Source: Diabrotica undecimpunctata
Lineage: Eukaryota > Arthropoda > Insecta > Coleoptera > Chrysomelidae
Reading direction: 5' to 3'
Length of the DNA stretch: 64,000 bases
Assembly (NCBI RefSeq): GCF_040954645.1
Contig: NC_092811.1
Location: 87,597,199-87,661,198 of the forward strand
Shown here: piece after piece, positions 3,263 to 45,607 of the stretch
Numbering within the stretch: the first letter of the stretch is position 1
How the letters are laid out: each line of letters starts with the position of its first letter
The notes under the pieces: model-generated
What the model was told of the DNA's origin: nothing
The model's database searches: none
What the model saw: only the letters and a program-made list of their open reading frames with translations
Program-made: the position numbers and the translations under genes

Positions 3263-3919
3263 AAAGTATTCAACTAGTGAATTCAGAGGTTTAATCGGTC
3301 ATTCAGGTTGGCAAATAAAAAAAGAAGTCAACTACTTCATAAGTTTATTGAAGACGTTTCGCTTTATATTTCTAAAGCTTCATCAGTTCTCTAAAATATA
3401 ACAAATGACATTGAGTTTATAAGAAATACAGATGCTTATAGTTCATAACTTACAACTCAATATGTAGTATGTTATCGATGTTATCATATCTACTGTACAC
3501 TTTACTCCTTATTTAAAACTAACTTAACCAAAAAAGAAAAAACAAAAAACAAAAACAAAAAACACACAAACTTTGAAGAAAATAATGTTCATATTCGTAG
3601 ATATGAATATTTAAAAAATTTTAAACGAACATTTGGCTTCATTTAGATGGTTCTCCACTGAAGACCAACAAAGTTCTGATTTATTGCAATCTAAGCAAAC
3701 AACTTGACGCGATACCGAAAATTTTTTTAAGGGCCATGTGTCACCAAATTCCAAGGTTTGAGACAATTATGAACTTCTACAGGGGACATTGCATAATTAG
3801 TTGGACAGATGGAATTTGTATGGCGGAAATATTTGATATATTATTTTTAATTTATGTTTTAATGAAACTTGGAAATAGGGGATGATTTTGTTATTATTTT
3901 GAACGGAAAATACGCCAAC
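3261..3919 (-). repeat. Left inverted arm (pLTR) of Penelope element
   Basis: Reverse complement of 5203-5861, equal in length (659 bp). In RT orientation this arm lies just downstream of the ORF and carries the ribozyme motif in the same strand sense as the RT gene, the expected place for a Penelope 3' pLTR. Confidence 0.9.
3353..3386 (-). ncRNA. Hammerhead ribozyme motif (left arm)
   Basis: On the minus strand: CTGATGA, a stem II GCTTT/AAAGC with an 8-nt loop, then GAAAC directly followed by GTC. This is the conserved hammerhead core, with a 3-bp stem I start (GAA/TTC) and almost no stem III. Such minimal stem III hammerheads are known from Penelope-like elements. Same strand as the RT ORF. 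Confidence 0.8.
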
Positions 3920-3942
3920 TTTTAACTGAAGAATAATTGGTA

Positions 3943-5253
3943 TCATTTATTTCGTAAGATGAGAGAGTGGTAAACCTGGCTCAAATTGTCGATGTCGGTT
4001 CTTTTGTTTATTGCCGATGAGTTCTTGAGGATCTCACACATTTCAATAAAGGAGCCTTTCTGATGGTTGTTTTGTTTCGCCAGTATTTTGGTATTTGTGA
4101 AATCAATGTGATGTTTAGTGGAAATGGCGTGTTGTGCAAGGGCACAAGAGGGTTTGGAAAGTCTGATGTCGCTTTTGTGTGAAGTTATACGCCCTAGAAG
4201 AGATCGACTAGTCTGGCCAATGTAGCAGGAGTTGCATTCTGAACAAGGTATCTGATAGACAACATTAGTGTGCTCTAACGAGCTTAGTGGAGTTTTAGAC
4301 TTGGAGAATAACTTTCCAATGGTTTTAGTATTTTTTAGGGATATTTTGCCGGGTAAGTTTTTAAATAGTTTAGTAAGCTTGTTCGTAATTTGTGGGAAAT
4401 AGGGAAGAGAAGCATATTTTGTGGCTGGTTTTGGGGTTAACGGGGAAATGTTCGTCTGTGTGCTATTGGATATGGAGGCTAGTATTGCACCGTTGGGTGC
4501 TTCCGAAATAGAATGACCGTAGCTTTTAGAGAAAAGATATCTGTTGATGATGGATATGGGGTAAGAGTTATCAATGAGAATGGATTTGAGTAAATCCAAA
4601 GATTCCCTCTTGTACCGCGTATGGGTCAACGTATGTACTCTAAAGCTAAGAGCTTGTACAAGGTTATGTTTGTATCTTATTGGGTGTGTAGAGTGGTAAT
4701 TTAAGAACCGGTTGCTCGCCATGTCTTTCCTATACCACGTAGTGCCCAATGTGTTACTATGTGTGCGTATGATTCGCATATCCAAAAACGGTATGCTGTT
4801 ATCAACCTCCAATTCACAAGTAAATTGCAGGTGAGGGTCAACGCTATTGAAGACTGATAAGGTGCTTAAAATCTTATCAGGTGGTGTTGCTAGGATCAAG
4901 TCGTCGACATAACGCTTTACAAAGGGAACCTGGAAATCTAACTTACTGATACTCTCATTGATAAGGTCATCGAGTACGAAATTAACTAGAATGGGGGAAA
5001 TGGACGATCCCATGAGAGTTCCAAAGATTTGGCGATAATATTTGTCATTAAATATTAGATAATTGATGTCAAACGTCAGTTTTAATAATTCCGAGAATAT
5101 TTCCCATGATACTGGACTGTGTGGTTGGATTTCATTCCAATGGTTCCGGAGTGACGTGACGACGCTGGAGAGTGGGAGGTTAGAAAACAGTGATACTACG
5201 TCGTTGGCGTATTTTCCGTTCAAAATAATAACAAAATCATCCCCTATTTCCAA
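3943..5253 (-). CDS. Penelope-like reverse transcriptase with GIY-YIG nuclease (5'-truncated)
   Basis: 436 codons. Residues ~60-150 carry the RT palm: IFGTLMGSSISPILVNFVLDD, then the catalytic FVKRYVDDLI and later FLDMRI. A linker follows, then a C-terminal GIY-YIG endonuclease: VVYQIPCSECNSCYIGQTSR, a downstream LLGRITSHKSDIR with the conserved Arg, and a FIEMCEIL block with the Glu. Full Penelope proteins are usually about 700-850 residues, so the N-terminal RT fingers are missing. There is no ATG: the frame opens just after a TGA within the right arm, and the first ~17 codons are arm sequence. Frame and catalytic residues are otherwise intact, suggesting recent insertion of a truncated copy. 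The role in a full element is TA/AT-biased target nicking and target-primed reverse transcription. Confidence 0.88.
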   Translation of the reverse strand: MEIGDDFVIILNGKYANDVVSLFSNLPLSSVVTSLRNHWNEIQPHSPVSWEIFSELLKLTFDINYLIFNDKYYRQIFGTLMGSSISPILVNFVLDDLINESISKLDFQVPFVKRYVDDLILATPPDKILSTLSVFNSVDPHLQFTCELEVDNSIPFLDMRIIRTHSNTLGTTWYRKDMASNRFLNYHSTHPIRYKHNLVQALSFRVHTLTHTRYKRESLDLLKSILIDNSYPISIINRYLFSKSYGHSISEAPNGAILASISNSTQTNISPLTPKPATKYASLPYFPQITNKLTKLFKNLPGKISLKNTKTIGKLFSKSKTPLSSLEHTNVVYQIPCSECNSCYIGQTSRSLLGRITSHKSDIRLSKPSCALAQHAISTKHHIDFTNTKILAKQNNHQKGSFIEMCEILKNSSAINKRTDIDNLSQVYHSLILRNK

Positions 5254-5861
5254 GTTTCATTAAAACATAAATTAAAAATAATATATCAAATATTTCCGCC
5301 ATACAAATTCCATCTGTCCAACTAATTATGCAATGTCCCCTGTAGAAGTTCATAATTGTCTCAAACCTTGGAATTTGGTGACACATGGCCCTTAAAAAAA
5401 TTTTCGGTATCGCGTCAAGTTGTTTGCTTAGATTGCAATAAATCAGAACTTTGTTGGTCTTCAGTGGAGAACCATCTAAATGAAGCCAAATGTTCGTTTA
5501 AAATTTTTTAAATATTCATATCTACGAATATTAACATTATTTTCTGCAAAGTTTGTGTGTTTTTTGTTTTTGTTTTTTGTTTTTTCTTTTTTGGTTAAGT
5601 TAGTTTTAAATAAGGAGTAAAGTGTACAGTAGATATGATAACATCGATAACATACTACATATTGAGTTGTAAGTTATGAACTATAAACATCTGTATTTCT
5701 TATAAACTCAATGTCATTTGTTATATTTTAGAGAACTGATGAAGCTTTAGAAATATAAAGCGAAACGTCTTCAATAAACTTATGAAGTAGTTGACTTCTT
5801 TTTTTATTTGCCAACCTGAATGACCGATTAAACCTCTGAATTCACTAGTTGAATACTTTAG
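5203..5861 (+). repeat. Right inverted arm (pLTR) of Penelope element
   Basis: Inverted copy of 3261-3919. Its inner 51 bp double as the start of the truncated RT frame. It carries the plus-strand hammerhead at 5736-5769. Confidence 0.9.
5736..5769 (+). ncRNA. Hammerhead ribozyme motif (right arm)
   Basis: CTGATGA at 5736-5742, stem II GCTTT/AAAGC, GAAAC then GTC ending 5769; flanking GAA and TTC can start stem I. It mirrors the left-arm copy but lies on the strand opposite the RT ORF, as expected for an inverted pLTR. Confidence 0.8.
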
Positions 5862-16488: not shown

Positions 16489-16779
16489 TGTAGCGTTTTA
16501 CCAATAAAACGAGCGGTTATAATTTATATAAATATTTTTATTTATAAGTTTACAGCACGATAATATGTGATCAACTAACTAACCTAATATCAGCGCAGCT
16601 TATAATATATACAAGTTGTTATGTACCAGAATAATCTTGAGTAGTCCATCTCTATTCTTCCCGTCGAAAGCGCATCGAAGAACGGCGCTATTGATAACGC
16701 CAACGATTAAATATTCTAGGTTTATTCTTCTAAGAATTGTGACACGTACCACGCATCGGAGATGGGTTATTTCGTTACA
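16489..16779 (-). repeat. Gypsy 3' LTR
   Basis: 291 bp, starting TGTAGCG and ending CGTTACA on the plus strand. About 230 bp align with 19912-20140 with scattered substitutions, including shared TTTACAGCACGATAATAT and GTCGAAAGCGCATCGA. Confidence 0.85.
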
Positions 16780-16790
16780 CTGCTCCTCTC
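16780..16790 (-). other. Polypurine tract of Gypsy element
   Basis: On the minus strand GAGAGGAGCAG lies directly between the TAA of the macrodomain frame and the TGTAACG start of the 3' LTR: the correct place and composition for a plus-strand primer. Confidence 0.75.
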
Positions 16791-17340
16791 TTAGATCTGA
16801 GCGTCCCGATCAGCAATTCCATATGTAGGCCCAGGATGGCGTAATCTACAGGACTCTCTAGCTCTGCATAAACCCCTCGAGAAGAAATACCAGTCTAGTG
16901 TCTTTGAAGGACACGATCTCTTCGGATTATTGGAACACACAGTAATTCGTACGCTGGTTTCTCGGACCACTTCAAGCATGCTTCTGACAATCTTCTAATC
17001 CAGATTTTCTAGTGTATGGCCTATCTTGGGTAAGGCCAAATTCTTGATGTCATAATTGCACACAATTCTCTTTAAATTAGTTAGAGCACGCCATATATCC
17101 TCGTAGCTTGCCCTGTCTGTATACGATTTCCTGGTCATCATATACAGCAAAGATCGAGGACCATCTTCTAATCTTAGTACTCTTCCAACTTTAATCTGCT
17201 AGAGAAGATTCCTTTAGTCATCTCAAGATCTTGAGCAACACAGTGGGCTAGAGAGACGTTATGCGGAACACTAAAAAGATACCGCTTAATTTCTGTGGTC
17301 ACACCGAATCTAGCACTCTTTCTCTCTGCGTAATTTGAAT
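16791..17340 (-). pseudogene. TARG1/OARD1-type macrodomain in Gypsy 3' region
   Basis: Minus strand: ARFGVTTEIKRYLFSVPHNV, SLAHCVAQDLEMTKGI, then after one frameshift KVGRVLRLEDG, LLYMMTRKSYTDRASYEDIW, RALTNLKRIV, IKNLALPKIGHTLENLD, a stop, then VRSMLEVVRETSVRITV. Block for block this matches the TARG1/OARD1 (ALC1-like) macrodomain class: SLAHCxxxDxxMxxGIA, GxVxxL, YYLxTKxxxxxPTYExL, LxMPxIGCGLD, VxxMIxEVFxxTxIxITVY. Known family role: binds ADP-ribose and removes it from glutamate. The catalytic Asp motif GCGLD reads GHTLE here, and there is a frameshift plus one stop, so this copy is inactive. About 45 further residues lead to TAA adjoining the PPT. Position after integrase makes it the last coding segment of the element. 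Confidence 0.8.
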
Positions 17341-17344
17341 TCAT

Positions 17345-17830
17345 GTGATTGAGAGTAAAAACTGTGTGGAATGTGTAGTAGAAGGCGACCTAGATCATGT
17401 AATTTTTGGTTACGCCAAATATAATTTGTAATCCACCTTATTATATAATAATATAGTTCATATTACCGGTAAATCTCCGTTCAACGTTGTATCTGCCCTA
17501 TCAACTCAAAATAGATTAATTTGGGATTGCATAATTGATTTTTTGACCAAATGTAATATTTTAGTTTAGTTCAAAAATAAAATTTTGTTTTTACCTTTAT
17601 TTTCTCTCCTTTATATGTTTAATCCTATTTACCGTTGCCTAGTTTTCCTGTGTATGTTATATATTATAATGTCCTGATGGGCCCCTGAACGTGAAGCGAG
17701 TGACCCATGTTAATTGTATGTGTTTATGGAGATACATGTGTATGTATGTATATTTTTTCTCTTCTTTTCATTAATTGTTGTACTGATTTCCCAACTTTAA
17801 ATTTGTCTATTTTAGTCTATTCGATTGCAA
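17345..17830 (+). pseudogene. I-clade LINE 3' end inserted in Gypsy
   Basis: Plus strand: CVECVVEGDLDHVIFGYAKY, then VVSALSTQNRLIWDCIIDFL and a stop. It parallels the C-terminus of the full LINE at 45080-45281 (CKHCGKLGDLDHIFFECPKF...). Its 3' UTR holds GGGCCCCTGAACGTGAAGCG, close to GGACCCCTAGACGAGAAGCG in the full LINE's 3' UTR. The insert separates the Gypsy integrase from the macrodomain. No clean TSD was found. Confidence 0.65.
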
Positions 17831-17839
17831 ATAATTCAG

Positions 17840-18480
17840 AAACTTTTTACTGCGCCTAATGAGATTAAAAGATCATGTAACTGGCTGTATGGCAAACTGC
17901 CGAAGCCATTTAAAAAAAAAACATGTTACAGACAAGGTCTGCAGCCAAACTCTAGGTCGCAAGGCAAACGAACTTCACGACCTAACATCAGGCAGGTTGG
18001 AGTATGGCCTGCAGTTTCATACACGGCCGAGCGTTAGGCACTTAGGAATAAATGAATGTGCTGGTCCCAATCTCTTTGATGTTCTGATACAACTTTGAAC
18101 ATGTGTTTATCCATCTTTCGGTTTATCCTCTCGACCATTAAAGGTTCTATACAGAAGATTATCTTTTAGTACTATGCAGTTTCATTGGCTCCAGGAAGAC
18201 TTGGCTGCTGGACTACATGCACTAATGTCTTGCCAAGAAGGTGTTTTACTTCGACGCATCCAATCCAATACTCTTTGTATACATGGATCATCTGCTTGAG
18301 CGTCTTGTAGCTGTTACGGCTGCCATTGATCAATATTGATGGTGGTTCGTTTCACGGGGCAAAGTGGTTCAAGTTTAAGACAGTGATTACAATTTGCACT
18401 TCATGGCCGCCTTGACTGAGCATCAGCATTTAAATGACTTTTTCCTGCCCGGTGTTCGATCTGTTTCTGCTTTCTGAGTG
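17840..18480 (-). pseudogene. Gypsy RNase H tail and integrase relic
   Basis: Minus strand: IEHRAGKSHLNADAQSRRP (end of RNase H), SANCNHCLKLEPLCPVKR, an H2C2 linker region with EYWIGC...HLLGKTLVHVVQQPSLP, ETAxY...IEPLMVERINRKM, then MFKVVSEHQRDWDQHIHS followed by ARPCMKLQAILQPA and VVKFVCLAT. The last blocks correspond to the integrase core end (VSEHQRDWDxxIPxxxxAYRSxxHETTGYTPA). Many stops. Its start is fused to gag by deletion. Confidence 0.75.
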
Positions 18481-19640
18481 TTGTTTTATATTCTAGCAAT
18501 TTACGGCCAATGTGACCTACGTCCCCACCATCCCAACATCTGGTTTCGCGTCTCTTTGGCATTGTGTTATAAACTAGTTTCCATGCGATTTCCTCCAGAC
18601 GTTTATCGTTTTGTTTGTCGCTCTCTTCAGAGGTTTGTACTCGATAGCTCCGTGAAGTTCGACTAGCTGTTTCGTATTCATGGCAATGGCGAGAGCTTCA
18701 TCTAAAACTTTTGGTGTTGCTAGTCGTAAAGCTTTCTGTAGTTCAGTGTCTCTCAACCCATTGACGAAGGTATCTACAGCAATTTCTTCCAAAATGTTGT
18801 ATGGTACCTCCGGATAAGCTAACCGCTCTATATGAGCAACATCTGTTTCAAATTCTTGCAAATTCTCACTTGCTCGTTGAATTATACTTCTTCTTTGTAC
18901 TTTGTAGACATTTTGTAGATGGACATCTCCGGGTGATATTTTTCTTGGCCCTTAGGAATCAATCTTAGGATATCCGCAGCACCACCTCGTAAAGAAGCAG
19001 TCAAGGAGACCTTTTCTTGTTCTGTTCAATAATTGGCTGTCGAAATAGCTTCAATTGTCTAAAGTATATGGACCAAGAAGACTTTCCATCAAATGGTGGC
19101 AATTTGAATCTAATATGATGTGTCGTTTCATCTCTAAGTGATTCTTCTTTCACTACAGGATCTAAAACTACTGAATTAACTGGTGGTAGCACGTTTGTAT
19201 TGGTTATCATGGTCTCTAATTGTTTTATATTATCTTCTACGTCTTTTATCTTGTCGTTTACATTTCTTTGTATCTTATCGAATGTTCTAGAAACTTCTTC
19301 AAATTCCTCATTATTCTGAACACATACTTTTTTAATTATTTTAGAAGTCCCGTCGAATCTTATATAAACTTTTTCAAATTTCTCATTGTGTTTACTAGCT
19401 GCTTCTTTAATAATTTGAGACGTTTCATCGAATCTTTTGGAAACGTTTTCAAATTTACCATCATTTTTTCTAGAAGTTTCTTCGATCGTTTGAGAAACAT
19501 TTTCAAATTTGTCGTCATGTTTTCTAGAAGTTTCTTTGATCATTTGAGAAAAAATTTTTATTTTCGTTAAAACTGCTTTTTCTGCTGACTGGAACTGGAA
19601 TATCTCTGGGTCATCTACATTATTGTTGGGAACATCTTTT
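18481..19640 (-). pseudogene. Gypsy gag with coiled-coil repeats and zinc knuckle
   Basis: The N-terminal half is a run of degenerate ~22-residue coiled-coil repeats built on ETSRKxDxKFENVS. These are followed by FKLPPFDGKSSWSIYFRQL, the conserved Gypsy gag entry (PxFDGxxxWxxYxxQF). After a frameshift comes ENLQEFETDVAHIERLAYPE, VDTFVNGLRDTELQKALRLA and LDEALAIAMNTKQLVE, the standard gag core. At the end CWDGGDVGHIGR is a CCHC knuckle whose second Cys has become Gly. Directly after it the sequence jumps into the RNase H tail, so about 2 kb of pol is missing. Confidence 0.8.
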
Positions 19641-19898
19641 AGTCATTCTTGAAGGATCTTCTTGGACCCGTTGCAGTCTTCATCGCGTTTTTCTAGTTGT
19701 TCACGCAACTATTTTACCGAAAGTTCTACTAGCAGCACCTTTGGTCAGGCATACACGTACTTTTTAAATGTTCTTTCTTACAAAGATCACTACCGAACTA
19801 CGCTGATGTTTCCGATGAACAATACTTTTCAAAAGAACAAAAGTCTTTTTCAAAAGTCACTGCTAAATTTATTTTTAAATAAATCAATCATCCTCACA

Positions 19899-19911: not shown

Positions 19912-20140
19912 TGTAGCATTTTATCAATAAAACGAGCGATTTTAATTAATATAAATATATTTATTTATAAGTTTACAGCACGATAATATCTTATCAACTT
20001 ACTAACCTAATATCAGCGCAGCTTATATATACAAGTTGTTATGTACTAGAATAATCTGGAGTAGTCCATCTCTATCCTTTTCGTCGAAAGCGCATCGAAA
20101 AACGGCGCTATTAAGAACGCCAACGATAGAATATATTAAT
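19912..20140 (-). repeat. Gypsy 5' LTR, truncated
   Basis: Aligned with 16489-16710. Similarity stops at about 20130-20140, so its outer ~70 bp and the TSD are lost. A short match to the tail of the 226-bp palindromic element (AAAATGCCACAAGAAA) lies immediately outside, at about 20156-20171. Confidence 0.8.
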
Positions 20141-39835: not shown

Positions 39836-39991
39836 CATCAGTTTCGTTTGAACCTTCGAAGAGAGAAGTCAAACAACAATAACCGGCTTACCGATTTGTT
39901 ATTAATTAGTGTTCAAGTTTTTGTTTTTTCGTGTTGCTAAATTTATCAAAACAATTTAAATAAGTTAGATTTTAAAAACTTCGCCCCCGCC

Positions 39992-41359
39992 ATGGGGAGC
40001 GTAAAAAATAAGACGCCAGATGGTGATAGTGGAGTTACTTGTGAAAGTGATAGTTTTTCCAATATGGAAAGTACTGCTGCCGTCATGGAAACGGGAACAA
40101 TAGGTGCTAAGGAGGACGAACCAAAACTATTTGACTCGATAAATCCAGATAAGTACTTGTTAAATAATTATTGCGTATATGTTGAAAAAACTAATCAGCA
40201 AAGTTTGGGTCGTTTGCATCCTATGTTTGTAGGACATATTTTACACAAAAATCTAAAAGTACAAAACATTCAGGAAATTAAGGGAATAGGTAGAAATCGC
40301 GTTAAAGTAATAGTAAATTCAATAGCAGAAGCTAATAAGTTGGTCACAAATAAAAATTTAAAAGAATTAAACTTAAAAGCTTTCATACCTAATCACCTTT
40401 TAGAGGTCAAGGGTCTGATCCGAGACGTTGACACAAGTTACGACGTTGATTATTTAAAACAAAACATAAATTCAAACTCAAGGGTTCTAGACATCAGACG
40501 AATGCACAGGAAAATTGAAAAAGATGGTAAAGCTGAGTATGTACCTAAGAAGACCATTGTAGTCAGCTTTGAAGGAAACATATTACCCAGCCATATATCC
40601 GTTAATTTTGTTTATTTTAATGTGGAAAAATTTATAGGCAGGGTCACACAATGCTATAGATGTTTGAGATTCGGACACATATCAAAACAGTGCAAAAGCA
40701 GCCAAGAACATTGTATTTTATGTGGATCTGTCAAAACCGAAGAACATAACTGTTCTGAATTCAATAAATCATGTATACATTGCAAGAGTACACAGCATAC
40801 ATCGATTTCCAAACTATGCCCAATTTACGAGGAACAGAAACGTATTAAAAATTTGATGATAGAACAGAAAGTATCCTTTTTAGAAGCCAAAAAGCTTTTT
40901 CAATCTTCATATTCAGAAATAACAACGAACAATCGCTTTTCTGCCTTAACAAACTACGAGGCAGATTTCCCGAAACTACCTCAAAGTTCTGGTAATAAAC
41001 ATGCTTTCCAGCAGCCACAACCTACAAATTCTCAACGTTCGGATAGTAGCAGACCTATGGCACTAACCCATAACAACAAAAAACGTAAAGCCACTACTTC
41101 TCCCTCATCCCCAAACTTACAGAACCCTCCCATGTTTAACTTCCGTTTTGGACCATCACATCCTCTTCCCCAGTATCCAAAGCAATCTACCTTTCAACCC
41201 ACAGAAGGTGATAATAAAGATATTGCTCAGGCAGTGACGGAGTGTGTCATTAATTTTTTAAAAAATATTCACACACTTGAGGATTTAAAATCTGTAGATA
41301 ATGAGAGCATAAATCAAAAAATATTTTCAGTATTGGAGGGTACTAAAACATTGAAATAG
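39992..41359 (+). CDS. I-clade LINE ORF1, gag-like RNA-binding protein
   Basis: 455 residues, ATG in a purine at -3 context (GCCATGG). N-terminus acidic and disordered. Residues ~50-215 form a conserved basic domain (YCVYVEKTNQQSLGRLHPMF, RNRVKVIVNSIAEANKLV, IPNHLLEVKGLIRDVDTSYD). Then three zinc knuckles: CYRCLRFGHISKQC, CILCGSVKTEEHNC and CIHCKSTQHTSISKLC at about 225-285. After a short helix (RIKNLMIEQKVSFLEAKKLF) comes a Gln/Pro/Ser-rich tail. In I-type elements this protein coats the RNA and carries it to the nucleus. Frame intact. Separated from ORF2 by 117 bp. Confidence 0.9.
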   Translation: MGSVKNKTPDGDSGVTCESDSFSNMESTAAVMETGTIGAKEDEPKLFDSINPDKYLLNNYCVYVEKTNQQSLGRLHPMFVGHILHKNLKVQNIQEIKGIGRNRVKVIVNSIAEANKLVTNKNLKELNLKAFIPNHLLEVKGLIRDVDTSYDVDYLKQNINSNSRVLDIRRMHRKIEKDGKAEYVPKKTIVVSFEGNILPSHISVNFVYFNVEKFIGRVTQCYRCLRFGHISKQCKSSQEHCILCGSVKTEEHNCSEFNKSCIHCKSTQHTSISKLCPIYEEQKRIKNLMIEQKVSFLEAKKLFQSSYSEITTNNRFSALTNYEADFPKLPQSSGNKHAFQQPQPTNSQRSDSSRPMALTHNNKKRKATTSPSSPNLQNPPMFNFRFGPSHPLPQYPKQSTFQPTEGDNKDIAQAVTECVINFLKNIHTLEDLKSVDNESINQKIFSVLEGTKTLK

Positions 41360-41476
41360 AATTCTTAGCATATATCAAAATCAAAATTATTTATCTAAAT
41401 TATGTAATTCAAATGGAACTTTTTTCTGGCAGTATTTCTTATTTAAACATTAATCCAAGATCAAAATGCACTATTA

Positions 41477-44400
41477 AAAAAACAAATATGAATGTTTTCA
41501 CTTATTTTATTATACAACTTTTTACTTATTCGTTAGAATCAGATGTTGGAGGACATCTTCAGTAAATAAGGTTTTCCAAGGACAAACAACTCTGAGAATT
41601 TTACAATGGAACGGAAGGTCCGTTGCATCCAATAAAAATAGTTTAGTTCATTTTTTAACAGCTGAAAACATTGATATAGCGTTGTTAAGTGAAACATGGT
41701 TCAAACCAAATCAAAACTATATATTTAAAGGTTATAATATAATCCGCCAGGATAGATACGATGGATATGCCGGTGTAGCAATTTTGATTAAAACTTCTAT
41801 CTCATTCTGTCAAGTGAATATTACTAAAAATTTCAATGATAAAATTTTAGTTTGTGGCATCTCCGTTAAATTTAACAATTTAGAATTAAGTTTCTTGTCT
41901 GTGTATAGGCCTCCTAAAGTCCATACTTCTAAAGATGATTGGAAAAATATCTTCTCTCAAGTTACATCACCTTGTATAATTGGAGGGGATATGAATGCTC
42001 ATAACTCTTTATGGGGCTCACTGCACAATGATGCTGCAGGTCATCAAATCGTCAGCAGTGTCGAGGACCTAGATCTTATTATTTTGAATAATGGGGAACC
42101 CACATATCTTTCCAAATATGGTACTCAGAAATCTATGATTGACATTTCTCTCTGTACAGCTAATCTAGCCAGCAAAGTTTCCTGGTCCGTATCTTCAGAT
42201 ACCTTAGGGTCAAATCATTTTGCTATAACCATGAACCTTTCCACAACTAACACATCACATGAAACAATTTATCCAAAAAGCAAATGGAATATCAATAAAG
42301 CCAATTGGTCACTTTATACATCCTTAATAGAAAACATGTTTGTCAACTATAGTATCTCTTTAAACACTTACGAAAATTATAATTTTCTTATTAATTGTAT
42401 TAATGAATCTGCTTCAAAATCTATCCCTCAATATAAAATTCTTAAACTCAAAAATCGTCCCCCACCACCATGGTGGGACCCTGAATGTGATATTATAATT
42501 AATGAAAGAAAAAAGGCTTTAAAAGCTTACAAACTTTCATCGAGTTTTGATAACTACTTAAAATGTCAGGAAGTTACTGCTCGAACAAAAAAGCAGTTGA
42601 AGCAAAAAGCTAAATCCAGTTGGATCAAATGGTGCTCCAATTTAAACAAAAATACCTCTGCTAAGCAAATATGGTCACAGGCCAACAAAATGAATCGAAA
42701 ACCGCAGAATAGTATAAAACCTTTCAGCAATGAAGTTTTAGATGACTTCTTTAATAAAGTTTCTCCTCCCTGGGTTCAATATTTCTCTAACCAATCCGAA
42801 CAAAGTCACCAATCCAATCACTTTTTGTTGAAACCTTTCACTAAATCTGAATTAGATTTCGCTCTCAAAAATTGCAATAATACCTCCCCAGGGATTGATC
42901 AAATCAAATACCCTATGTTAATCAACCTACCAAGAGCCGCTAAAGATCTGCTGTTACAGGTATTTAATGACATCATTCAAAATAACATCGTTATTGATTC
43001 ATTTAAAAACGCCATTGTGGTTCCTATCCTAAAGTCTGGTAAAGATCCAAATATTGCAAATTCATACAGACCAATATCGTTACTTTCCTGTGTTTTTAAA
43101 ACTCTAGAGAGACTCATAAAATTTAAACTGGATTGGTGGTTACAAAAAAATAATTTGCTACCAGAAAATCAGTTTCGTTATAAAAGAAGCTTTGGAACAC
43201 TAGATGCTCTAACAACCATTGTGGTAGATGTACAAAATACCTTAACCAGAAACAACTATTTAACAGGACTATTCTTGGATATTGAGGGAGCATACGAATC
43301 AGTTTGCTTGTCAACTTTAAGAAATAAAATGGTTAATTTATTTCATATGCCAATCGCATTCGTGGATACAATAATTGGATTTTACACAAAGAGGATCATC
43401 TATGTAAGAGATCATAATAACAAGCTAATTGGACCGCGATATAATTATCAAGGTATACCACAAGGCTCAGTTTTATCTCCAATCTTATTCAACATATACA
43501 GCTCTGACATACATAACATCCAAATAAATAACAGTTCATTCAAAATCGTACAGTATGCCGACGATTTCTGCATCTATACAGAAAACAAAAAATATGAAAC
43601 CTGTATACAAAGCCTTAGCAAAGTATGTGAATCCCTTTTTTCATGGTTCTTAGAGAATGGTCTCAATTTATCTATAGAAAAATCAGTAGTATCTATCTTC
43701 ACAAGACACAACATTCCTAGAAATGAAAATATCATTCTGAACGATCAATGTTTTAAGCTTCAAAATCATGTCAAATATCTAGGCCTTATTTTGGATAAGA
43801 AGTTAACTTGGAGACAACACATAGAGTACATGCTTGATAGATGTAACAAAGGCAGCAATTTCCTCAGAATGACAACTAAAACATGGTGGGGTTGCGATGT
43901 AGAAACATCCTTGTTGTTTTATCGCGCATATATACGATCTATTCTAGATTACGGTGCTACTCTTTATGGTTCCGCCTCTAAGAACCTTTTAAGAAAAATC
44001 GACACGTTTCAAAATTCTATTATGAGGATATGTTTGGGTGCTATGAGATCAACCCCTATACAACCCTTATATGTTGAAGCCGCTGAGCTACCCCTGGAAA
44101 ATAGAAGAAATTTTTTAAGTGAAAAAAGCCTTCTTAAAATTCTATTAACTAACTCCCAGTTATTTTCAAGCGTCCGTCAACTTAACGAGTCAGATCTTAC
44201 AAACAAATATTGGGAGAAAAAACCTTCCCCGCCTTTATGCATGGCATTACAGAATAATCCTATTTTTTTCAAGAAATTGGACACGGTTGACAGAAGCTTA
44301 GACTACTATTCTTTATTCCACAGAACTCAGGTTATAATACCCACTTATAGTGAGAACACCATTATGAGTAGCAATCTTCTAATATCTCTATTGCAGGATT

Positions 44401-45281
44401 ATAGGGAAGCCACAGTAATATACACGGACGCATCAAAAACAATAGAAGGGACGGGATGCGCATACTTTTTACCTGCTACAAACGTAGATTTCAAGTATAA
44501 ACTACCATATGAATTTTCAATCTTTTCAGCGGAATCAATAGCTATACTTGAAGCTCTAAAATATGTTAAAAACACCTGTAATAGACATATCTTAATTCTG
44601 TCAGATTGCCTTTCAGTTTTGCAGAGCATAAAAAACATTGAATTACCCTCAACATTTAGCAACCCCTACATATTTGAAATAAAAGACCGATTGTATCATT
44701 TATCATCGACTGGAGTCAACATAAAATTTATTTGGGTCAAAGCACATATTGGTCTCAAACACAATGAATATGTAGATCACTTGGCTAAAATGAGTGTAAC
44801 AACTGGCTCTACGTTGAAATATATGCTTAACACATCAGATGTTACTACGATTTTCAAAAAAAATCAGCAACTTAGATGGAAAGAGCAATGGAAACATTAC
44901 TGTTCTACAAACTCTAAAAGGTATACCTCTTTACAACCAACTCTACCTCAAACAACCTGGTTTCAGAATTTCAAAGCTCCTCGTAAATATATTACTACTA
45001 TAAATCGAATACGCTTTGGACATGCATGCTACCCATGCCATTTATTTAAAATTAAAGTCATCGATGATGATAGTTGCAAACATTGCGGCAAGCTAGGTGA
45101 CCTCGATCACATCTTCTTTGAATGTCCTAAATTTATTCAGCATTCAAACTCCCTGTATACAAAATTAACTAAATGCAATACATACGCTCCATATAATATA
45201 CAGTCTTTGTTAGCCATAGGTTCTGTAACAATATATAATTTAATTATAGAATTTTTGTCAGACACATGCATAGCTTTATAA
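41477..45281 (+). CDS. I-clade LINE ORF2: endonuclease, RT, RNase H
   Basis: Open from the stop at 41474; there is no ATG before 41991. Endonuclease: LRILQWNGRS, ALLSETWFKPNQ, SVYRPPK, CIIGGDMNAHNSLWGS, then GSNHFAI, where the catalytic SDH Asp is Asn. RT: NCNNTSPGIDQIKYPML, ANSYRPISLLSC, motif A GLFLDIEGAYESV, motif B GIPQGSVLSPILFNIYSSD, motif C VQYADDFCIY. RNase H: VIYTDASKTIEGTGCAYF, FSAESIAILEAL, LILSDCLSVLQSI, WVKAHIGLKHNEYVDHLAK (all four acidic positions present). C-terminal zinc motif CKHCGKLGDLDHIFFECPKF. About 1268 codons open from 41477, normal for I-clade ORF2. Only the start and the endonuclease Asn look defective. Confidence 0.92.
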
Positions 45282-45607
45282 ATCTGCTACTCGTTCATGA
45301 AAATTTTCATGAGCGTGTATAGGATTAGACTTGTACCCTTTGTTTATCCTATATGTAACAATACCTTATCCGTGGTCCAGTATTGTTTGTCTGTTAAAAT
45401 AAATGTCTTGACGGACCCCTAGACGAGAAGCGAGTGTCCTTGTATTTTCCTTCGACGTGGTCTTCTATTAATTATTCGTCTATTTCGTTTTAGGGATATC
45501 GCTGTGCATTTGTCTGAGAGAAATAATCTGTACTTATCTGTCTATACTTTTTTAAGGAATATATTATAACCTTTCGAGACTGGCTGAATGACGAAAGTCA
45601 ATGCCAC
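45282..45607 (+). other. LINE 3' UTR with conserved block
   Basis: At about 45405-45435 it reads TGACGGACCCCTAGACGAGA followed by AGCGAGTG. The same block occurs downstream of the unrelated C-terminus at 17660-17705. It may be the RT recognition structure. A short palindrome CATGAAAATTTTCATG lies at 45297-45312. Confidence 0.55.

Follow-up and report, generated by a model that had tools for sequence, protein, structure and literature searches.

The window, that is the whole stretch of 64,000 nucleotides from Diabrotica undecimpunctata analysed here, carries an old and internally deleted Ty3/Gypsy copy on its minus strand at about 20134-16489. Between the LTRs the order of the element in 5' to 3' direction is gag pieces, a join of a zinc knuckle with an RNase H tail, integrase pieces, a 467-bp insertion, the macrodomain and finally a CCCH zinc finger. 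The 5' LTR (19912-20134), the first part of which is missing or diverged, pairs with a 3' LTR of 291 bp (16489-16779, TGTAACG...CGCTACA). Both are 90% identical over 226 bp with a K2P distance of 0.091 (223 sites) and therefore the insertion is old. The 3' LTR starts in the same way as those of two relatives, L024 and L029, and is 72% identical to them over its whole length.

Downstream of the 5' LTR, comparison with the relative L033 identified a piece of an N-terminal SAP domain of gag at 19646-19699. It is followed by gag pieces in several frames (18577-19642), for which the match to Ty3_capsid is weak and below the cut-off (E 0.015), and by the junction of the gag zinc knuckle with the RNase H tail at 18404-18560. 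Integrase is represented by N-terminal pieces at 18110-18313, recognised by homology to an intact relative, and by pieces of the end of the core at 17929-18165 with 62% identity over 68 aa to the integrase of L022, an element described below. Between integrase and macrodomain lies a later insertion (17403-17869, 467 bp) bounded by an 11-bp direct repeat, TTACATGATCT, at 17392-17402 and 17870-17880. The insertion is AT-rich, a 38-bp piece of it recurs at 45402-45439 of the window, and there is a 38-bp match in L008.

The preliminary description of this DNA had reported minus-strand blocks of a TARG1-type macrodomain. These are present at 17338-16938 as three pieces in order, namely an N-terminal piece (17201-17338) and a middle piece (16998-17198), both matching OARD1, and a C-terminal piece (16938-16994) that matches OARD1 or its Diabrotica relatives. 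In the middle piece the position of Lys84 of TARG1 is occupied by Arg and that of Asp125 by Glu. The TAA stop codon (16791-16793) directly ahead of a polypurine tract (PPT) and the 3' LTR was likewise confirmed; the PPT-like tract at 16780-16790 was assigned from the sequence, and the relatives have a similar sequence at the same place. The macrodomain was also said to be the last coding segment, which needs correction, as it is followed by a CCCH zinc finger (16836-16892) with its C-terminal tail (together 16794-16892). The C-terminal piece of the macrodomain and the CCCH remnant share one frame. Altogether the window copy is disrupted by breaks in the frame, a single in-frame stop and missing codons. 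The protease (PR), the reverse transcriptase (RT) and the greater part of RNase H are absent, as is much of integrase. Its macrodomain DNA is 80-85% identical to that of the five relatives compared.

Elsewhere in the window, the region 3625-5497 contains a reverse-transcriptase-like ORF at 3943-5256, whose end we take to resemble a GIY-YIG nuclease (Penelope-like), and an identical 86-aa ORF is present there in inverted orientation at 3625-3885 (plus strand) and 5237-5497 (minus strand). Consecutive long frames of 472 and 1267 aa at 39941-45281 appear LINE-like by eye, with a zinc-knuckle ORF1 and an endonuclease-RT-RNase H ORF2 read in the same way.

Identity of the macrodomain and the zinc finger

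In a search of PDB sequences human OARD1/C6orf130 was the top match of both window pieces tried, in order. OARD1 entries led with E 0.0012 for 16998-17198 and E 0.015 for 17177-17389. The match of the window pieces is beyond chance because relatives match the same OARD1 chains far more strongly: the Diabrotica protein P0001 reached E 3.3e-17 and the D. undecimpunctata copy L023 reached E 3.1e-28. Over the domain the identity to TARG1/OARD1/C6orf130 amounts to 39% (53/136). The macrodomain of L010, which belongs to a second family (family B, below), matched OARD1 with E 7.5e-23, and in L023 and L010 the homology spans the whole macrodomain.

A profile search with the Pfam Macro model had been suggested as a check, and it did not yield a call. 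No macrodomain was called by Pfam in the window pieces, and the model stayed under its 22-bit cut-off in every protein tried, with scores of 19.1 (P0003), 14.4 (P0006), 14.3 (L023) and 13.2 bits (P0001) and no match listed for P0002, P0004, L010, P0007 and P0008. Since Pfam Macro stays below its cut-off, the macrodomain call rests on the homology to OARD1. An AlphaFold2 model of P0003, built from six sequences, had a mean pLDDT of only 38.5.

The CCCH finger has CPSF4 fingers as its best PDB matches. All four ligands are intact in L023 and L010, and the zf-CCCH model (Pfam cut-off 20.5) scored 29.1 bits in L010, 24.8 in L023 and 22.6 in P0007. The finger of the Aromia protein P0008 is below the Pfam cut-off. 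In the window copy the first Cys ligand is replaced by Trp and the piece reaches only 11.5 bits, to a related Pfam model. The strict C-x7-9-C-x5-C-x3-H pattern is present in 18 of 22 copies of the window's own family (family A). CPSF4/CPSF30 fingers are the closest solved relatives of the element finger, which differs from them by occurring singly at the Pol terminus, with a putative RNA-binding function.

Intact relatives in D. undecimpunctata

With the annotated protein P0003 as query, a search of the 1.74-Gb genome returned 5443 first-look candidates, the best 150 of which were scored. All 150 matched with 83-100% identity, and 146 had no internal stop. The open frames around these best 150 clustered at lengths of 1413/1414 aa (43 copies), 1803-1866 aa (20) and 921 aa (17). 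We read eight macrodomain-selected copies of 1650-1656 bp each. Seven of them showed an unbroken frame from the end of a GPY/F-type integrase through a linker, the macrodomain and the CCCH finger to TAA, followed by the PPT and the start of an LTR, which reads TGTTAC in five copies and TGTAACG in L024 and L029. In the latter two an in-frame deletion has removed the integrase core. Intact relatives thus have a Pol of RNase H, integrase (H2C2, core and GPY/F-type C-terminus), linker, macrodomain and CCCH finger with the stop at the PPT. In both copies tested the LTR pairs were free of mismatches in 284 and 281 aligned bases, respectively, and flanked by 4-bp target site duplications (TSDs; ATAT and GTAT). 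These insertions are recent.

The exception among the eight is L026 (G000:C8:128836850-128838505), the copy that is annotated as the gene of P0003; its frame begins in the linker between integrase and macrodomain, and a decayed CCCH follows downstream. In seven of the eight copies stop, PPT and LTR start come after the CCCH tail with no env ORF. Since Pol ends at the PPT, the copies read offer no space for an env gene.

The window feature represents the 3' end of the coding region of a Ty3/Gypsy copy that is decayed and internally deleted and belongs to a high-copy Diabrotica family. The idea that a Gypsy lineage carries an OARD1-type macrodomain downstream of integrase and ahead of the PPT was borne out, the domain being part of the element. 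For the architecture alone, with integrase, macrodomain and CCCH finger as parts of one element, we see hardly any room for doubt.

Sister copies of the element

Two findings had been named in advance as speaking against this view, namely full-length sister copies that lack the domain and macrodomain blocks with boundaries of their own. For the former, we searched with 111 residues of the integrase end, excluding the macrodomain, and scored the best 150 of 7635 candidates, which were 99-100% identical. Fourteen of these were read with 911 bp fetched on the downstream side of each: the first 13 absent from the macrodomain list and one chosen for its short frame. Integrase end, macrodomain, CCCH finger and LTR start were found in all 14, the LTR starting about 675 bp past the end of integrase in each, so that no sister copy without the domain occurred among the 14 read out of the best 150 of 7635. 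The frame was kept to its usual end in 11 of the 14; a frameshift interrupts L034 and L042, and in L038 a stop follows immediately after the finger. For L047 a short integrase stretch was fetched, which was unmatched at the cut-off used. As only candidates of 99-100% identity were scored, diverged lineages without the macrodomain may exist. Separate boundaries of the macrodomain were not seen either, as in the intact copies it forms one frame with integrase.

A deleted, non-autonomous class

L033 (upstream) and L029 (downstream) are parts of one copy with a 921-aa frame. This open frame comprises gag, the integrase zinc domain, the integrase C-terminus, the macrodomain and the CCCH finger; RT and the integrase core are lost. 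Retrotrans_gag and SAP score above the Pfam cut-offs in L033, and at L033:180-1691 gag begins with the SAP domain, which is of a DNA-binding type. Among the 17 copies that have a 921-aa frame (L029 and L048-L063), 15 carry the same in-frame deletion of the integrase core as L029 while keeping the macrodomain frame, and L048 and L057 have this frame length without the core deletion. The junction of the gag zinc knuckle with the RNase H tail lies at the same place in the window copy and in L033, the one such copy read. Therefore, the window copy shares an ancestor with the non-autonomous class, and compared with L024 and L029 it has lost less of the integrase core.

Family B and relatives in other beetles

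In 20 stretches of 10 kb spaced along contig C1 (201 kb when L001 is included) a single distant element was present. This element, L010, was extended with L022 and defines family B. L010/L022 encodes the end of RT, RNase H, integrase, macrodomain and CCCH finger in a single open frame of at least 915 aa, where RT end and RNase H were read by eye and the integrase part by Pfam. Families A and B are identical at 134/206 positions of integrase, 64/153 of the macrodomain and 12/23 of the finger, i.e. the macrodomain is less conserved between the families than integrase.

As a protein query, the macro-CCCH end of L010 (residues 690-915) gave two matches with E <=0.001 among 831 candidates. P0007 is a metagenomic polyprotein of 1339 aa with RVT_1, RT_RNaseH, H2C2, rve and CCCH above the Pfam cut-offs, a protease below its cut-off and a macrodomain called by homology to L022. 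P0008 is a polyprotein of the longhorn beetle Aromia moschata with the macro-CCCH architecture. In the D. virgifera protein P0006 the macrodomain is followed by the CCCH finger and, as read from the protein, by an apparent PPT and LTR start. Scans of viral contigs with three queries gave no relatives. The macrodomain-CCCH pair is not confined to the copies of a single beetle family.

Active site

Catalysis by TARG1 uses Lys84 and Asp125 (PMC9411070, PMC5087735). In family A the Lys84 position is Arg in all 22 copies checked, while the Asp125 position is Asp in 18, Glu in two and unmatched by the pattern in two. Arg is likewise present in those D. balteata and D. virgifera proteins in which position 84 is covered (P0001, P0002, P0004 and P0006); at position 125 they have Glu, or Val in P0001. 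L010 and P0007 keep Lys84 but show a gap of two residues in the loop of Asp125. Families A and B lack the full dyad, whereas Aromia P0008 keeps both residues. Besides these changes of Lys84 to Arg in family A and the absent Asp125 position in family B, the element domain differs from TARG1 in being fused to Pol and in its phosphate-loop residues: MGAG is changed to MTKG and GCGLD to GHALD, and family B is two residues short here. Because the loop residues differ, even ADP-ribose binding may be lost.

The dyad in Aromia means that the ancestor may have been an enzyme. Probably, the dyad was present in the ancestral element and disappeared from the Diabrotica lineages by two different routes. 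A loss of TARG1 chemistry in the Diabrotica macrodomains is likely from these residues, and erasure of PARP marks by this chemistry is doubtful there. However, some hydrolase activity would still be possible, since Asp125 is kept in 18 of 22 family-A copies and SCO6735 hydrolyses without the dyad (PMC9411070).

Selection on the macrodomain

The comparison of L023 with L026 gave dN 0.074 and dS 0.311 over 158 codons of the macrodomain (dN/dS about 0.24; Fisher p 1.6e-6). As L026 itself is decaying, this ratio would be pushed up. For L023 against L024, dN was 0.004 and dS 0.044 over 204 codons, which reflects merely 2 and 6 changes, and between families A and B the synonymous sites are saturated. 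The window pieces compared with L024 (dN 0.083, dS 0.124, 180 codons) show no constraint in the window copy now, in line with its decay. From the one well-populated pair together with the conserved architecture we conclude that selection maintained the module during replication of the elements.

Comparison with known systems

The element resembles env-less Ty3/Gypsy elements (Metaviridae) in the order RT-RNase H-integrase (P0007), the H2C2 and rve domains, the p58-type C-terminus of integrase, LTRs with TG..CA ends, the 4-bp TSD and gag (L033). It differs from them in that its Pol extends into the macrodomain and the CCCH finger and that the gag of L033 starts with SAP. In contrast to env-bearing errantiviruses, it has no env ORF between pol and the 3' LTR. 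Macrodomains are known in RNA viruses, and titles cited in PMC10499221 refer to them. Among retroelements, fish epsilon-like endogenous retroviruses were described with macro-domain or CNPase ORFs by Basta et al. 2009, according to the citing passage in PMC4977317; the same study is also referenced in the parts consulted of PMC8672886 and PMC10499221. As far as these passages go, both systems are retroelements carrying a macro domain; theirs are vertebrate and have it as additional ORFs, whereas in the insect Gypsy element described here it is joined, along with a CCCH finger, to integrase. For insect retrotransposons further accessory domains have been discussed, with the macrodomain unmentioned in the section consulted (PMC6338049). 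Among the papers listed in our search of the open-licence literature, none was seen to describe a macrodomain in Gypsy or any other LTR elements, which is not proof of absence. Differences in genome size within Diabrotica have been attributed mostly to MITEs and gypsy-like elements (PMC8982398).

Origin and possible function of the module

A separate retrocopy of host OARD1 inside an unrelated LTR relic was considered for the window, where the macrodomain lies about 590 bp apart from integrase. Most of this gap is explained by the 467 bp of repeat-bounded later insertion, and in intact copies integrase, macrodomain and CCCH finger are read in a single frame, for which reasons we rejected this explanation as scarcely credible. 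Alternatively, the annotated Diabrotica OARD1-like genes could be host genes from which the element copies were derived. P0003 and P0004 do bear the public name ADP-ribose glycohydrolase OARD1-like, and P0004, like P0006, is known here as a protein alone. However, P0003 sits in L026, whose frame begins within the element linker and has a decayed CCCH downstream, so that a misannotated copy of the element is the likelier reading. That these annotated genes are host genes and gave rise to the element copies is very improbable.

Regarding the function, we propose that the macrodomain-CCCH module is made as a C-terminal tail of integrase, travels with Pol into the virus-like particle and binds ADP-ribose and RNA, a model that we consider about evenly poised between right and wrong. 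The macrodomain would read ADP-ribose on chromatin, on DNA ends or on capsid/integrase, and the CCCH finger would bind the element's own RNA. In Diabrotica the module would probably work without the Lys84/Asp125 chemistry of TARG1, and its likeliest use would be to tether the pre-integration complex to ADP-ribosylated chromatin or to shield it there. More tentatively, a captured ADP-ribosyl hydrolase may have turned into a catalysis-deficient ADP-ribose reader on integrase combined with an RNA-binding CCCH finger. The module as a whole would then work alongside Gag during packaging or in targeting to chromatin, rather than only next to the catalysis by integrase. This possibility is raised because the class without RT and integrase core still keeps the module.

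The preliminary description had suggested that the macrodomain counters PARP signalling, and an active eraser would remove ADP-ribose placed by host PARPs on the DNA, RNA or proteins of the element. TARG1 is the closest solved relative, the Aromia protein keeps Lys84 and Asp125, and dyad-free hydrolysis has a precedent in SCO6735 (PMC9411070). Nevertheless, countering PARP by hydrolysis is not supported in Diabrotica, given Arg at position 84 in 22/22 family-A copies as well as in the four D. balteata and D. virgifera proteins, and the gap at Asp125 in family B; we hold an active eraser to be rather unlikely. Finally, the module might have been captured by chance and ride along without a role. 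Its macrodomain diverges faster than integrase, and active-site and loop residues are changing. Against such a passenger stand the dN/dS of about 0.24 in the L023/L026 pair, the architecture common to a longhorn beetle and the second Diabrotica family, and the frame preserved in a copy without RT and integrase core, which make it improbable. The reading of the module as an integrase tail that would bind ADP-ribose and RNA is the one we prefer.

For gene annotation our results are a warning, as a Diabrotica gene annotated as OARD1-like (P0003) can be an element copy. The apparent route leads from an enzyme-like domain, with the dyad kept in Aromia, to dyad-less domains in the two Diabrotica families. 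With a macrodomain fused to its integrase, a high-copy and recently active insect Gypsy family would make ADP-ribose recognition a part of the integration of LTR retrotransposons, and the conflict between PARPs and transposons would become testable in insects.
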